From the IMG/VR virus record IMGVR_UViG_3300032282_000364, positions 1-23,483 of that record: a stretch of DNA of 23,483 nt; one strand, 5' to 3'. This DNA is from a virus. The notes below the pieces were generated by a model that ran no database searches, had not been told where the DNA came from, and was given only the letters and a program-made list of their open reading frames with translations. Shown here piece after piece: positions 7,681 through 19,148 of this stretch. Position numbers and translations under genes: made by a program. Position 1 is the first letter of the stretch, and each line of letters starts with the position of its first letter.

Positions 7681-7709
7681 TTGACTCTAGTTTACTGCGG
7701 AGTTATAAT
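7681..7709 (+). promoter_or_regulatory. Host sigma-70 type promoter
   Basis: TTGACT at 7681-7686 and a perfect TATAAT at 7704-7709 are separated by 17 bases, the ideal spacing. The ATG of the 376-aa gene lies 34 bases past the -10 box, with CGGAG before it. It is the strongest host-type promoter in the window and marks the following genes as an early or middle unit within late genes. Confidence 0.75.
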
Positions 7710-9116: not shown

Positions 9117-9297
9117 TCCTATTGAACAACGTATGTCTACAATGATGACTATTATTGATACTGCTATTCTTTCAGCCGACAATAGAAATGATCAGTTGAT
9201 GTTGGCTTGTGCTATGATGCAACGTACTAGAGAAATTTTTGATGCTACTCTCGGGGTAGAGGGTCGCAAAACAATGTTTAAAGGAGTTAGTGAATGA
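9100..9297 (+). CDS. Small helical protein of unknown function (65 aa)
   Basis: Starts MSQQFDPIEQRMSTMMTIID with AAGGAG 8 bases before the ATG. The chain is methionine-rich and predicted almost wholly helical (NDQLMLACAMMQRTREIFDA). No membrane segment or known motif is seen. It overlaps the preceding gene by 17 bases and the following MazG gene by four (ATGA), so the three are surely co-translated. A regulatory partner of MazG would fit the coupling but is only inference. Confidence 0.65.
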   Translation: MSQQFDPIEQRMSTMMTIIDTAILSADNRNDQLMLACAMMQRTREIFDATLGVEGRKTMFKGVSE

Positions 9298-9746
9298 GTA
9301 ATCAAGTTGACTTAAACAAGTATCAAGAGTTTGTACAGGCAGTGACTAGCGAAGCAAGTAATGATCTCACAGCGTTTATGAATCGTCTTGATCGTCTAGA
9401 TGCAAACTATGAAGCATATGGTAGCGATGGTGAGTACATGCATGGACCACATGTCAATGTCCCATTATTGCTTACTGGTGCAGTTGGACTGACTGCTGAA
9501 TCAGGTGAACTGATTGAGATTGTGAAGAAGATGCTGTTTCAAGGCAAGCCGCTTAACGAAGAAAACGTTTTTCACATGAAACGTGAACTCGGTGATATTA
9601 TGTGGTACTGGATCAATACTTGTCGCGCACTTGAACTAGACCCCAATGACGTTATTGCAGAGAACGTAAAGAAACTTGAAGCACGTTACCCTGGCGGAGA
9701 GTTTGACGTTTTTCATAGCGAAAATCGTAAATCAAACGATCTTTGA
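9294..9746 (+). CDS. mazG: MazG-like nucleotide pyrophosphohydrolase
   Basis: A 150-residue protein with the MazG metal-binding pattern: E69-S-G-E72 in the helix AESGELIEIVKK and E98-L-G-D101 in RELGDIMWYW, giving ExxE and ExxD about 26 residues apart. The C-terminal AENVKKLEARYPGG is also typical. The fold binds magnesium and hydrolyses (d)NTPs or alarmone-type nucleotides to monophosphates and pyrophosphate. In T4-like marine phages such genes have been proposed to affect ppGpp or to recycle host nucleotides; the substrate cannot be decided here. It is the last gene of the early-type unit, four-base overlapped with the 65-aa gene and followed by a hairpin with a T tract. About 60 residues precede the core. 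Confidence 0.88.
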   Translation: MSNQVDLNKYQEFVQAVTSEASNDLTAFMNRLDRLDANYEAYGSDGEYMHGPHVNVPLLLTGAVGLTAESGELIEIVKKMLFQGKPLNEENVFHMKRELGDIMWYWINTCRALELDPNDVIAENVKKLEARYPGGEFDVFHSENRKSNDL

Positions 9747-9755
9747 TATCAACAG

Positions 9756-9792
9756 AATTCCCGATAAATAATATACTATCGGGAATTTTTTT
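9756..9792 (+). terminator. Perfect hairpin with T tract (intrinsic terminator or RBS-blocking stem)
   Basis: AATTCCCGATA (9756-9766) pairs perfectly with TATCGGGAATT (9777-9787) around a 10-base loop. Seven Ts follow at 9786-9792, and the gp13 ATG begins at the next base. It ends the MazG unit. The right arm also holds the only plausible ribosome-binding bases for gp13 (GGGAA, 9781-9785), so in read-through RNA the stem would hide them. Confidence 0.8.
9763..9770 (+). promoter_or_regulatory. gp13: Late promoter nested in the hairpin (GATAAATA)
   Basis: GATAAATA covers the end of the left arm and the start of the loop. By T4 spacing the transcript starts near 9776, after the left arm, so late RNA cannot form the hairpin and leaves GGGAA free 7 bases before the gp13 ATG. 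Confidence 0.6.
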
Positions 9793-10578
9793 ATGGCTAA
9801 TGATCCACTGTCAACACCTACTAACGCAACATTAGAAGAGGCCAAAGAAGGTCTTTATAATAACTTAAGATTACGTTTAGGTGGTGACATTGTTGATCTT
9901 GAATTGGATCCTCAACACTACGAAGCGGCATATAACTACACTATCAAGTTATATCGTCAACGTGCGCAGAACGCTAATATTGAAGCCTATACGTTATTAA
10001 CGATCATTAAGAACGTTGACACATATACACTTCCCGCAGAGTTTGTAAACGTACGTAGTATCTTTCGTAGAACAGTAGGTCTAGAGACTGGCCCGAGCAG
10101 TACATCATTTGATCCGTTCTCAAGTGCTATTCTCAATACATACTTGTTGAATTATAACTACACAGGTGGCATGGCTACATATGATTTCTATGCAGGCTAT
10201 GTTGAATTGGCTGCACGTATGTTTGGCGGATATGTAACATATACATTCAATCCAGTAACTAAAGTGTTGAAAATGGTACGTGACTTCAAGGGCACAGGTG
10301 AGCGTGTATTGATTTGGGCAGACATTCAACGCCCCGAATTAGAGTTACTAATGGACCCAGGTATTGGTGTTTGGATTGGTGACTATATGTTGGGTACACT
10401 AAAAACTATTATTGGTGAAGCCCGTGAAAAGTATGGTACCATTGCAGGTCCGGGTGGAGGTACAACATTAAATGGTACTGCTATGAAGGCAGAAGGTGCC
10501 GCACTACAACAAAAGTGTATTGAAGACCTGGGTAAGTATGTTGATTACAGTCAACCATTAACTTGGATACAGGGATAA
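9793..10578 (+). CDS. gp13: Neck (head completion) protein, T4 gp13-like
   Basis: A 261-residue protein. The N-terminal part (LEEAKEGLYNNLRLRLGGDI, then VDLELDPQHYEAAYNYTIKL, then YRQRAQNANIEAY) and the C-terminal helix region (GDYMLGTLKTIIGEAREKYG, then GGGTTLNGTAMKAEGAALQQ, then KCIEDLGKYV) follow the pattern of gp13 in T4-like cyanophages. gp13 binds the portal after packaging and, with gp14, makes the neck that accepts the tail. The ATG directly follows a T tract and has only GGGAA as ribosome-binding site. Expression is expected from the late promoter nested in the upstream hairpin. Unlike T4, gp13 is not next to gp14; they lie on opposite strands, separated by the early-type unit. An HNH endonuclease gene follows. 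Confidence 0.8.
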   Translation: MANDPLSTPTNATLEEAKEGLYNNLRLRLGGDIVDLELDPQHYEAAYNYTIKLYRQRAQNANIEAYTLLTIIKNVDTYTLPAEFVNVRSIFRRTVGLETGPSSTSFDPFSSAILNTYLLNYNYTGGMATYDFYAGYVELAARMFGGYVTYTFNPVTKVLKMVRDFKGTGERVLIWADIQRPELELLMDPGIGVWIGDYMLGTLKTIIGEAREKYGTIAGPGGGTTLNGTAMKAEGAALQQKCIEDLGKYVDYSQPLTWIQG

Positions 10579-10581
10579 GGC

Positions 10582-10608
10582 TTGACAAACACAGAATATA
10601 CTTATATT
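10582..10608 (+). promoter_or_regulatory. Possible sigma-70 promoter before the HNH gene
   Basis: A perfect -35 box, TTGACA, at 10582-10587 is followed by TATATT at 10603-10608 (spacing 15) or TATTTA at 10605-10610 (spacing 17). Neither -10 choice is ideal. It would give the homing endonuclease its own early expression, as is common for such genes. Confidence 0.4.
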
Positions 10609-10637
10609 TATCTTATCCTCACCGTATAAGTAAAGAT

Positions 10638-11468
10638 ATGAAACATATCTTTATAGAAAATAAGTATACCAAGTGGTATTATGCTATTGTACAACAAGCA
10701 CAAGCACGCACTGTCCAAATAAAGGGTGAGAAGCACCATATTATTCCTGAATCGTTCTACCTAAACCGCAAAAGAAAAGGTAGTGCAGGTTGGTTAGAAG
10801 GTCACCCCGACGATCCCTCTAACCTTGTTACCCTTACTGAACACGAACACTTTGTTTGTCATTTGTTATTGCCAAAGATGACAACAGGTCCTGCTAAACA
10901 CAAATCACTCAGGGCTATTATGGGGATGTCTACTTTACACAGCCCGGGACAGGATAGAAAACGCTTGACCGGTCGTAGATATGCGGCGATTGCCAAAGGA
11001 CTATCTGAAACAGAAATGTCGGAAGAATCTAAACAGAACTATAAGCAAGCAGGAATCAATCGCGCCGCCAAAAGGAGAGAGGCAGGATTGGGAGGAACAT
11101 TTAAAGATAAGAAACATCAGCCTAAAACCATATTAGCAATGAAAGAGACTGCATCTCGTCCTAAATCACAAGCCTGGAAAGATAGTGCATCTAAAAACAG
11201 GAAAGGTAGAACTCCGTTCAATAAAGGTAAGACATTTGAAGAACTATACGGAGAAGACAGAGCCGAAGAGATACGAAAAAAGATTTCATTACCGGGCGAG
11301 AGAAATGGGTTCTTTGGGAAGAACCATAGCGCCGAACAACGGGCTAAAAAAAGCAAAGAAAAACTTGACGCACCTAAAAAAACCTGCTATTATTGTAACA
11401 AGACAGTAGATGCTATGAACTATTCTAGATGGCACGGTGACAACTGTAAACAAAAAGGAATGACATAA
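10638..11468 (+). CDS. HNH homing endonuclease with NUMOD3 motif and zinc-finger tail
   Basis: A 276-residue protein. I use the ATG at 10638 because MKHIFIENKYTKWYYAIVQQ is the usual N-terminus of this phage HNH family; the TTG at 10563 would overlap gp13. The nuclease core is at residues 30-75: EKHHIIPES (H33, H34), then N62 in SNLVTLT, then H71 and H75 in HEHFVCHLLL. The middle and C-terminal parts carry basic NUMOD-type DNA-binding repeats, including PFNKGKTFEELYGEDRAEEI and the NUMOD3 motif GFFGKNHSAEQRAKKSKEKL. The end is a CCHC finger, C-x2-C-x12-H-x3-C, with RWHGDNCK. It lies between gp13 and the dNMP kinase gene and overlaps the latter by one base (TAATG). A free-standing mobile gene is inferred. 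Confidence 0.88.
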   Translation: MKHIFIENKYTKWYYAIVQQAQARTVQIKGEKHHIIPESFYLNRKRKGSAGWLEGHPDDPSNLVTLTEHEHFVCHLLLPKMTTGPAKHKSLRAIMGMSTLHSPGQDRKRLTGRRYAAIAKGLSETEMSEESKQNYKQAGINRAAKRREAGLGGTFKDKKHQPKTILAMKETASRPKSQAWKDSASKNRKGRTPFNKGKTFEELYGEDRAEEIRKKISLPGERNGFFGKNHSAEQRAKKSKEKLDAPKKTCYYCNKTVDAMNYSRWHGDNCKQKGMT

Positions 11469-12561: not shown

Positions 12562-15500
12562 ATGGCATTAACATCACCAGGCGTCGAAGTTACAATCATC
12601 GACCAATCACAATATTTACCAGGAGCAGGAGCATCAGTTCCATTCGTAATGATCGCTACTGCTGCTAATAAAGCAAACCCAAATGGCGTAGGCTTAGCAC
12701 AGGGTACTGTACCAGCCAATGCAGGCAAGTTATTCCAAGTAACTAGTCAGAGAGATTTAACTACTCTATTTGGTACTCCATTCTTTTATACTACTAGCGA
12801 CGGTACACCAATTCAAGGTTATGAATTGAATGAGTACGGTCTACTAGCAGCGTACTCAGCACTAGGCGTATGCAACAATTGCTACGTACTAAGAGCAGAC
12901 GTTGATTTAGCAAGTTTAGTAGGTCAGACAGGTCGCCCAACTGGTGCACCAGACGATGCTACTTACTGGTTAGATACAACTACAACTACTTGGGGTATCT
13001 ATGAATGGAATGCAACAACACAAGCATTCACATACAAAACTCCAATCGTCATCACTAACAGTGATCAATTGTCAGGTACTGTTCCATCCTCAAGTCTAGG
13101 CAATACAGGTGATTACGCTATTGTAGAAGTAGCGGCAACTGCTGCAAATCCTTCTGCTGCACAGAAAACATTCTTCCACAAGTCTCCAACTAATATTTGG
13201 AACCCATTAGGATCAACACCATGGTTAGCGCAGGTACCAGCAGTTACAGGTACTGAATCAAATCCAGTATTAACTATTGGCGATACAATGACTCTTGCAT
13301 TATCAAATGGTGCAACATTTACTGTAACTACTACTGCTACTACTGTTGCTTCACTAGCAAGTTTAATTAATGGTGTAGGAGTTAAGGGTGTATCAGCAGC
13401 AAAAAATGCATCAACCGGCGCATTAGAAGTTTACTCTTCACAGGTATATGGTGAAGAAAATACTGACCCACCAAATTCAGTAACAATTACAGGCACAGGC
13501 ACATTGCTTGATGATTTAGGTATTGATCCAGGTACATACTATCAACCACAAGTTATATTTGGTACAAATGCACAGATGCCATTATGGCAGACTGATCAAA
13601 CTTACCCAGCACCAAGTGGTTCAGTTTGGATTAAGATATCAACTGCAAATAATGGATTGAATCCAATCGTCAAGAGTTATAATGCAACGACTGGCGTATG
13701 GCTAACACGCAACTGTTCATTAGCAACCAGTGACTGGGTAGCAACTGAGGCACTGGATGCAACAGGTGGACAGGCAATTCCTGCAGGAACTGTTTACGGT
13801 CAATACAATGCTAACGGTGATTTAGTCAGTAGTCCATTGTATATTTGGAAGAGAGCAGCAACTGGTCCAACAATTGTAACTGGTTCTGTAACTTCACCAA
13901 GTTTCACTAGCGGGCCATACACTGCAAGCGTCTATGTATCTACACCAGGCAATACAACTCTTTCAGGTCCATATGCACTATCATTGGGTGATAATACAAA
14001 TGCAAGTGATTTCGTCACTGCATGGTCAGCAGCAGTAATTCCTTATACTACTGCTGCTGTCAATGATGATGGTGCAATTGTATTGACACATACTGAAGGT
14101 GGTGAAATCGTACTTGACGATTATATAGACAACGTATCAAGCGGCTTATTCGCAGAAGCAGGATTTGTTGCAAACAGCACTGAATACTGCAAACCAGGTC
14201 CTTCAGCAACAGCAACTATTAACTGTGCTGCAAACGTAAACGTTACCGGTTCAGGAAGTGGATTACAAGTAACTCTAAGCACAATTAACGGTCGTGTTTC
14301 TGTGAATCCAACAGTATTTCCTGCAGCAGGTACAGGTTATGCTGTAGGCAATATTGTTAAAGTATTAGGTACTGCTATAGGCGGAACTACTCCAGGCAAC
14401 GACATTGCTTTAAGAATTATGTCAGTTGGTGGAGGTGGTGCAGTTACAGCAGTTGCGTTAAGCGAAAACGTACCTGGTTATGCTCCAGCAGTATACACTA
14501 CTCAATTAAGTAATTGGGAATTTGTTGACTATATTCCAAACGAAGGCGCACCAACTCAAGCACCAGCAGATTTGACAAACTGGTTCTGGAGCACTGCCGA
14601 CCAAGTAGATATCATGGTAAACACAAGTAGTACTGATTCACAAACTGGTTCAAATTGGAAAGCATATCGTAATGTTGCTTATGATGCTAATGGTTTCCCA
14701 AAACCAACTGGTACTAATGGTACAGATCCAAATGGTCCAATTATCAGTGCAACTAAGCCAACTACCCAGTCAGATGGCACAACTGCATTAGCATATGGTG
14801 ATCTATGGATAGATACAAGTGATCTTGAAAATTATCCAGTAATCTCACGTTGGCAACAACTAAAAGATAAGAATGGTAATCCAACAACTGAAGATGGTTG
14901 GGTACTAATTGACAATGCTGATCAAACTTCAAGTTCAGGAGTAGTATTTGCGGACGCACGTTGGGCAGGAAATGGCACAACTAACCCAGCAAATGATCCT
15001 ATACCAACAATCAAGAGTTTGTTAACAAACAATTATCTTGATATTGATGCTCCGGACAGTGATTTATATCCTGTAGGAATGTTATTGTTTAATACTCGTC
15101 GTAGTGGCTATAATGTTAAGCAGTATCGCACTAACTATCTAACACCTCTTCGTTTCCCGGACATGCCGTCTCCTCCAGGATATCCTGCAGAAACAGCAAC
15201 ATGGTTGTCAGCAAGTGGCTTACAAAGCAATGGTAAGGCATACATGGGTCGTCAGGCTCAGAGAGCAATGGTAGTTAAGGCACTACGTGCTACAATGGAT
15301 ACTAACCAAGCAATCAGAGATGAAGATAACTTCTTCAACTTGATGGCAACACCAAACTATCCTGAACTACAACCAAATATGGTCGTTCTAAACAATGATC
15401 GTGGTCAGACAGGATATATCTTAGGTGATACTCCAATGGGTCTACCAATGGACGCAACAGCAATTCAAGCCTGGGCAACTAACGCAGCAGGTGCAGAATC

Positions 15501-16191
15501 AACTGGTGAATATGGTCTAGTAACACGCGACACTTATTTAGGATTGTTCTACCCTAGCGGTATCGCTCCTGATCTAAGTGGCAATCTAGTAGCAGTTCCA
15601 CCAAGTCATATGATGATTCGTACATTCTTACGTAATGATACAGTTGCATATCCTTGGTTAGCGGCTGCTGGTACACGTCGTGGTATCATTGATAATGCTA
15701 CAAGCATTGGTTATCTAGACAGAGATACTGGTGAATTCCAAGTAGTTAAGACACCACTAGGTATTCGCAACACATTGTATATCAACTTCATCAACCCACT
15801 AGTGTTCTTCACTGGTAACGGCTTGTTGAACTATGGTAACAAGACTTCATATAACAGTCAAAGTGCGTTGGATCGTACAAATGTCGCAAGACTTGTTGCT
15901 TATGTTCGTCGTCAATTGACAATTGCTGCAAGACCGTTCGTCTTTGAACCAAATGACGCAATTACTCGTCAGCAAATTGCAGGTGTCGTAGAATCATTGA
16001 TGATTGATCTTGTTGCTAAGAGAGGCATCTATGACTACTATGTACAATGCGATGAATCAAATAATACTCCAGCAAGAATAGATCGTAATGAACTTTGGGT
16101 AGACGTAGCAATTGAACCAGTCAAGGCTGCTGAATTTATCTATATACCAGTACGCATCTTGAACACTGGAGAGGTAGCACAGTTACAGTAA
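12562..16191 (+). CDS. gp18: Tail sheath protein, T4 gp18-like, with large central insert
   Basis: A 1209-residue protein. The first 123 residues (MALTSPGVEVTIIDQSQYLP, then QRDLTTLFGTPFF, then GYELNEYGLLAAYSALG, then CYVLRADVDLASL) and residues about 844-1209 (NTRRSGYNVKQYRTNYLTPL, then ERSG-type polymer regions, then NFINPLVFF, LDRTNVARLVAYVRRQLTIA, RPFVFEPNDAITR, RIDRNELWVDVAIEPVKAAE) are the two halves of a contractile sheath subunit. T4 gp18 has 659 residues; here about 720 are inserted at 124-840. The insert is built of beta modules: ATYWLDTTTTTWGIYEWNA, a segment with LTIGDTMTLALSNGATFTV, a GTGYAVGNIVKV plus VGGGGAVTAV module near 600-630, and GDLWIDTSD near 750. These should project outside the sheath. 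AGGAAG lies before the ATG. The product is surely abundant and late. Confidence 0.93.
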   Translation: MALTSPGVEVTIIDQSQYLPGAGASVPFVMIATAANKANPNGVGLAQGTVPANAGKLFQVTSQRDLTTLFGTPFFYTTSDGTPIQGYELNEYGLLAAYSALGVCNNCYVLRADVDLASLVGQTGRPTGAPDDATYWLDTTTTTWGIYEWNATTQAFTYKTPIVITNSDQLSGTVPSSSLGNTGDYAIVEVAATAANPSAAQKTFFHKSPTNIWNPLGSTPWLAQVPAVTGTESNPVLTIGDTMTLALSNGATFTVTTTATTVASLASLINGVGVKGVSAAKNASTGALEVYSSQVYGEENTDPPNSVTITGTGTLLDDLGIDPGTYYQPQVIFGTNAQMPLWQTDQTYPAPSGSVWIKISTANNGLNPIVKSYNATTGVWLTRNCSLATSDWVATEALDATGGQAIPAGTVYGQYNANGDLVSSPLYIWKRAATGPTIVTGSVTSPSFTSGPYTASVYVSTPGNTTLSGPYALSLGDNTNASDFVTAWSAAVIPYTTAAVNDDGAIVLTHTEGGEIVLDDYIDNVSSGLFAEAGFVANSTEYCKPGPSATATINCAANVNVTGSGSGLQVTLSTINGRVSVNPTVFPAAGTGYAVGNIVKVLGTAIGGTTPGNDIALRIMSVGGGGAVTAVALSENVPGYAPAVYTTQLSNWEFVDYIPNEGAPTQAPADLTNWFWSTADQVDIMVNTSSTDSQTGSNWKAYRNVAYDANGFPKPTGTNGTDPNGPIISATKPTTQSDGTTALAYGDLWIDTSDLENYPVISRWQQLKDKNGNPTTEDGWVLIDNADQTSSSGVVFADARWAGNGTTNPANDPIPTIKSLLTNNYLDIDAPDSDLYPVGMLLFNTRRSGYNVKQYRTNYLTPLRFPDMPSPPGYPAETATWLSASGLQSNGKAYMGRQAQRAMVVKALRATMDTNQAIRDEDNFFNLMATPNYPELQPNMVVLNNDRGQTGYILGDTPMGLPMDATAIQAWATNAAGAESTGEYGLVTRDTYLGLFYPSGIAPDLSGNLVAVPPSHMMIRTFLRNDTVAYPWLAAAGTRRGIIDNATSIGYLDRDTGEFQVVKTPLGIRNTLYINFINPLVFFTGNGLLNYGNKTSYNSQSALDRTNVARLVAYVRRQLTIAARPFVFEPNDAITRQQIAGVVESLMIDLVAKRGIYDYYVQCDESNNTPARIDRNELWVDVAIEPVKAAEFIYIPVRILNTGEVAQLQ

Positions 16192-18710: not shown

Positions 18711-19148
18711 ATGGCTAACTTTGCATCAGGTGTATACGAGCCTTTAAATCCAGCAAAGTATGTAGGCAAACATAAGCCACGTTATCGTTCAGGGTGGGAA
18801 CTTACCTTTATGAAGTTCTGTGACAATAATAAAAGCATCATAGCCTGGGCTAGCGAAGCAATACAAGTACCCTATCGTAATCCATTTACAGGCAAACAGA
18901 CTGTTTACGTACCTGACTTCTTTGTTATGTACGAAGATAGGAACGGTAGCAAACGTGCAGAGATCGTTGAAATAAAACCTAAAAAGCAAAGCATCATTGA
19001 AAGCAAAGTTGCCAACGCTAAAACTAGAGCAACAGTAGCACTGAATCATGCTAAATGGGCTGCTGCGAATGCTTATTGCAAACGTGCAGGATTAACTTTT
19101 CGTGTTATAACAGAAGATGACATTTTCTATAATGGAAAAAGGGGTTAA
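18711..19148 (+). CDS. gp4: Head completion protein, T4 gp4-like, PD-(D/E)XK nuclease fold
   Basis: A 145-residue protein matching T4 gp4 (also called gp50/65): YEPLNPAKYVGKHKPRYRSG, then WELTFMKFCDNNKSIIAW, then SEAIQVPYRNP, then VPDFFVMYED and EIVEIKPKKQ. T4 gp4 is needed to complete filled heads before tail joining. The residues E30 and E49, P68-D69, and E87-I-K89 fit the TnsA-type restriction-endonuclease fold, so a DNA-end trimming nuclease is plausible. All key acidic and lysine residues are present. The C-terminal 35 residues (ALNHAKWAAANAYCKRAGLT, then FRVITEDD) complete the fold. Follows the 121-aa gene by one base. Confidence 0.88.
   Translation: MANFASGVYEPLNPAKYVGKHKPRYRSGWELTFMKFCDNNKSIIAWASEAIQVPYRNPFTGKQTVYVPDFFVMYEDRNGSKRAEIVEIKPKKQSIIESKVANAKTRATVALNHAKWAAANAYCKRAGLTFRVITEDDIFYNGKRG

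Follow-up and report, generated by a model that had tools for sequence, protein, structure and literature searches.

The window, which is the whole 23,483-nt stretch of DNA analysed here, carries a gene for a gp13-like head-tail adaptor, a neck protein, and the gene before it on the same strand encodes a MazG nucleotide pyrophosphohydrolase (Table 1). Between the two genes, a perfect 11-bp stem was observed, and ATAAATA and GGGAA both lie inside this hairpin. G9755 and A9754 lengthen the stem to 12-13 pairs, and folding gave an energy of -12.6 to -14.6 kcal/mol. The fold z score of the 81-nt hairpin region was -3.6, and none of 200 shuffled sequences was equally stable. Direct reading placed the stem, the ATAAATA, the GGGAA, the T run and the gp13 ATG exactly where an earlier, sequence-only reading of this DNA had put them, to the base. 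Three perfect 11-bp stems with loops of 3-15 nt are present in the window, and only the one at gp13 is followed by a T run. A general terminator scan missed this hairpin because its loop is longer than 8 nt. ATAAATA by itself is not rarer than chance in the window (10 copies, 8.3 expected), and seven of the eight plus-strand copies are located within or at short intergenic gaps.

Table 1. Features of the gp13 upstream region, with positions in the window.
Feature	Position	Strand	Basis or remark
Sigma-70-like promoter TTGACT-17-TATAAT	7681..7709	+	11/12 consensus matches, consensus only; candidate start of unit reading into gp13
MazG nucleotide pyrophosphohydrolase, last gene before the hairpin	9294..9746	+	Pfam PF03819 7.7e-11; phrog_229 3.2e-46
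Left arm AATTCCCGATA	9756-9766	+	Direct sequence reading; arm covariation; absent from predicted late transcripts
T4-type late promoter element GATAAATA	9763-9770	+	In left arm and loop; start expected near 9776
Loop AATAATATAC	9767-9776	+	10 nt; direct sequence reading
Right arm TATCGGGAATT	9777-9787	+	Carries gp13 Shine-Dalgarno bases; direct sequence reading
GGGAA, Shine-Dalgarno-like sequence of gp13	9781-9785	+	Within right arm; sequence
T7 run	9786-9792	+	Possible terminator tail and SD-to-ATG spacer; first two T belong to the stem
gp13 start ATG	9793-9795	+	T run abuts ATG directly
Proposed target of the control: gp13-like head-tail adaptor (neck) gene	9793..10578	+	phrog_211 (head-tail adaptor Ad2), 3.4e-21

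The sigma-70-like promoter lies 2.1 kb upstream of the hairpin, and strong sigma-70-like matches were also found about 1.2-2.2 kb upstream in several relatives. The phage itself is known only as this 23.5-kb IMG/VR fragment, and the search for the late sigma factor gp55 covered the records of its relatives. The gp55 family was present in 6 of 11 of them, including those of 333, 367 and 260 kb; in the others it is absent or lies outside the contig. ATAAATA has earlier been put forward as the late motif of another phage, the jumbo phage CBB, in which a gp55-like factor is present (PMC5259590). The 333-kb contig (L339) has a related gp13, which suggests that the window belongs to a T4-like jumbo phage.

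Directly after gp13, and overlapping its stop codon, lies a homing-endonuclease ORF (phrog_655, 10563-11468). An in-frame ATG of this ORF at 10638 is inside a perfect 10-bp hairpin with an AAA loop (10631-10653), possibly a second translation lock.

The upstream regions of related gp13 genes were compared at two depths. The close set consisted of 80 gp13 loci and the window; among these, 50 distinct upstream sequences had sufficient flank, and in all 50 ATAAATA ends 17-23 nt before the ATG. With wider searches and isolated phages, TAAATA was found upstream in 335 gp13 loci (183 distinct), and 11 loci gave no call. The distant loci were reached with an approximate 62-aa query, whose first part is the gp13 of a relative and whose rest approximates the family, and were afterwards re-matched to real gp13 proteins. 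A nested stem above the score threshold was found at 143 of the 183 distinct sites (78%), compared with 8% after shuffling of the left side, and at 27 of the 41 sites with less than 60% gp13 identity. Absence of the stem from close relatives had been named beforehand as an outcome that would refute the sequence-only reading; the stem was found there, which is in favor of that reading. The layout is shared by IMG/VR relatives and by jumbo phage isolates, with protein identities as low as about 32-45%. The left arm enters the promoter element in 109 of the 143 nested stems and stops short of it in the remaining ones, placing the element in the loop. An SD-like tetramer is entirely within the right arm in 125 of the 143, and loop lengths range from 5 to more than 20 nt. 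By score the stem is weak at 40 of the 183 sites, some of which have a same-strand upstream gene (L022, L040). No Rfam family matched the gp13 hairpin.

The stem still accompanies gp13 where the upstream gene is not mazG, and its presence depends on the direction of that gene. It was found at 118 of 138 sites with a same-strand upstream gene and at 4 of 12 with an opposite-strand one (P=1.7e-4, kinship ignored). An opposite-strand upstream gene is not expected to yield read-through RNA, and with such a neighbor the stem is mostly missing.

While the structure is kept, the sequences of the arms are not. Unrelated arms in the same layout were observed in the far relatives L184 (AAATATCCCGTT/AACGGGATATTT) and L185 (GTTATCCTGTTG/CAACAGGATAAC), in Xanthomonas phage XaC1 (AATCCTCTAAA/TTTAGAGGATT) and in Cronobacter phage GAP32 (CCCCTAAA/TTTAGGGG). 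Cognate arms paired better than swapped ones (15.9 vs 10.7), a difference reached in none of 20,000 permutations, and the advantage held when each arm class was represented by a single sequence (n=13). The covariation score of the alignment was 0.221 against 0.165 after shuffling, and none of 500 shuffles was as high. Hence, the covariation upstream of gp13 that had been suggested as a check was found in the related phages. A control slid by -1 likewise scored high in this test, probably owing to one-base differences in loop length, which blur the pair counts of an alignment. The helix is thus maintained by compensatory change between the arms, lineage by lineage.

An inverted repeat that overlaps a promoter could also be a DNA operator, bound by a homing-endonuclease autorepressor as at I-TevI or by another dimeric regulator, and a homing-endonuclease gene does lie immediately 3' of gp13. 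However, arm sequence and loop length vary freely while the pairing stays, the stem depends on a same-strand upstream gene, and the exceptions to pairing are mostly G.U. Internal G.U exceptions were found in 18 distinct contexts and A.C exceptions in 4 (P=0.004), which points to a coding-strand (+) RNA rather than to a palindrome in the DNA. Among the strand-based tests for RNA, only this count gave a signal; folding energies of the region showed no overall preference for the plus strand over the minus strand (P=0.50). The operator reading was rejected on the free variation of the arms, and we consider it very unlikely.

Opening the ribosome binding site (RBS) of gp13 in the window was predicted to cost 14.1 kcal/mol in the read-through RNA and 0.6 kcal/mol in the late RNA. 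Across the 50 distinct close-set sequences, the predicted means were 10.2 and 1.5 kcal/mol, respectively, and shuffling the left side lowered the former to 3.3, with P<=0.05 for 42 of the 50 sequences. L001, L025, L040 and L055 failed this test. As positive controls, T4 genes with known hairpins were run through the same code, and their opening costs fell from 14.4 to 0.9 for e, from 15.3 to 2.5 for 49 and from 11.9 to 0.3 for I-TevII. The precedent of T4 e, 49, soc and I-TevI, which the sequence-only reading had invoked, is supported by the same contrast in the e, 49 and I-TevII controls. In T4 gene 13 itself, the leader has no ATAAATA and the hairpin device is absent.

A purine-rich Shine-Dalgarno sequence beside pyrimidine-rich sequence might fold by accident, and the intergenic sequence here is short and AT-rich. 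Against such an accident, the left-shuffled sites seldom reached the threshold, and in the complete 333-kb relative, of the 53 comparable promoter-gene pairs that include an SD, only 9 have a nested stem with P<=0.02, gp13 being one of the strongest. The RBS energies, the cognate-arm permutations and the shuffled-site counts refuted a chance origin, to which we assign a negligible probability. In two other such pairs of this relative, the gene begins like a GIY-YIG and an HNH homing endonuclease, respectively, an assignment made by eye rather than by profile; this agrees with the practice of T4.

From the computed anatomy, the covariation of the arms, the conservation of the layout, the difference in opening energy and the dependence on the direction of the upstream gene, we propose that the RBS-hiding hairpin with its internal late promoter very probably serves as a cis-acting early-to-late translation switch on gp13. 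We infer the transcript starts, the read-through, the effect on translation and the termination as follows. RNA from the upstream mazG unit would hold both arms, so that the hairpin folds and the only Shine-Dalgarno bases of gp13 are buried, and gp13 would hardly be translated at this early stage. At late times, a gp55-type polymerase would initiate at the promoter element within the hairpin. The resulting RNA would lack the left arm, leaving the Shine-Dalgarno bases open, and gp13 would be translated. The T run, where present as in this phage and a few more, may additionally allow the hairpin to end a fraction of the transcription arriving from upstream. The earlier suggestion that the late transcript lacks the left arm and that read-through RNA hides GGGAA is thus supported by modelled energies and the T4 controls as well as by covariation and conservation.

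Whether the hairpin also ends transcription, as had been suggested, received a mixed answer. The hairpin of the window, with its stem of 11-13 bp and its T7 run, scores as a terminator (d = +10.9, positive), and T-tailed versions occur in separate lineages, e.g. XaC1 (L083), L069, L153/L156/L163 and L184. These observations would suit a hairpin that is chiefly the intrinsic terminator of the mazG transcript, with the overlap of promoter and RBS reflecting economy of space. However, the score was above zero in only 14 of 145 nested stems, from several lineages and with the window among them; the T tail is not conserved, yet the stem is retained and continues to overlap the SD. The T run also extends the stem toward the ATG, which would serve occlusion. 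Since the T run is absent from most relatives, which keep the hairpin, a plain terminator was rejected as the conserved role, and we regard a mainly terminating hairpin as improbable. Termination is possibly an optional extra of the hairpin, with the conserved role elsewhere.

A combination of both functions is a more plausible alternative, which we rate as possible but doubtful. Here, the terminator would act only on RNA with the left arm, and occlusion of the RBS would be a backup for read-through; the late RNA, being unable to form the stem, would not terminate itself. The window and about 10% of relatives combine a T tail with an SD inside the arm, but with a 10-nt loop and no more than four G-C pairs the hairpin would be a terminator of moderate strength, and the termination is a prediction. 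Tentatively, the roughly 40 bases could then constitute a self-cancelling terminator and translation lock, with early RNA both terminated and blocked at the RBS and RNA from the internal promoter immune to both. The layout stands on a virion gene in many T4-like and jumbo phages, with the T-tailed versions in separate lineages.

The early-to-late switch proposed for gp13 has close counterparts in T4. Hairpins at I-TevII, and also at I-TevI, I-TevIII, segB and mobE of Aeh1, block upstream transcripts, and in the I-TevII type, as at gp13, the late promoter lies across the left arm and the loop, and the right arm contains the SD (PMC2988022). The geometry of I-TevII (CCTCGTAT-AAATATGA-ATACGAGG) is identical to that of the window hairpin, but it has no T run, and hairpins of this type control homing endonucleases whereas the one here precedes a virion gene. 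In T4 e (lysozyme) and 49, the late promoter is in the 5' strand of an inhibitory stem, which reduces translation of early read-through RNA, 100-fold for e, and in several T4-like phages e lacks the structure (PMC3014915). The e and 49 structures concern single genes in close T-even relatives, whereas the version at gp13 is spread over phages that are only very distantly related. Intrinsic terminators share with the window hairpin a G-C-containing stem followed by a T run; the gp13 hairpin differs in its longer loop, in the lack of the T run in most relatives, and in a stem that contains the promoter and the SD of the downstream gene.

Hence, a lock of the T4 type, previously known from a few genes and chiefly in close T-even relatives, appears, with good support from sequence comparison and modelling, to be kept on one virion gene across divergent phages. 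A literature search, with most subscription papers outside its reach, found no report of it at gp13. Its near fixation at a single structural gene in very divergent phages with unrelated arms would be comparative evidence that excluding the neck protein from early messages matters. The layout may also offer a sequence signature for spotting early-to-late translation switches in uncultured phages.

Other RNAs and leaders were seen in the same records. One virus contig (L097) carries a betaproteobacterial tmRNA and a COG2908 RNA, at 15364-15715 and 18725-18769, which is either a hint of the host or a sign of a chimeric contig. In three gp13-like genes (L160, L161 and L176), TAAATA stands only 5 nt before the likely ATG, and their late mRNAs would be leaderless if these starts are right. 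Genes beginning with M(A/S)IIQISKIQ were found at 14623 (-) in L118, 8110 (-) in L101, 8246 (-) in L112, 221 (+) in L132 and 10627 (+) in L103. In these genes, a late promoter precedes a hairpin of the GTTGTACT..AGTACAACT type, which abuts the ATG and is itself part of the late leader; a clear Shine-Dalgarno sequence is lacking. In the window, a match to the Rfam family RF02980 ('freshwater-2 RNA', 1739-1833, 61.3 bits) begins about 10 nt after a late promoter, TTTTTTGATAAATA, and extends to the start codon (ATG) of an MGRPLKIAKAQAVV gene. The order of late promoter, RF02980 and ATG was the same in all 8 relatives where the family was found, and RF02980 therefore looks like a 5' leader of a late mRNA of T4-like phages.
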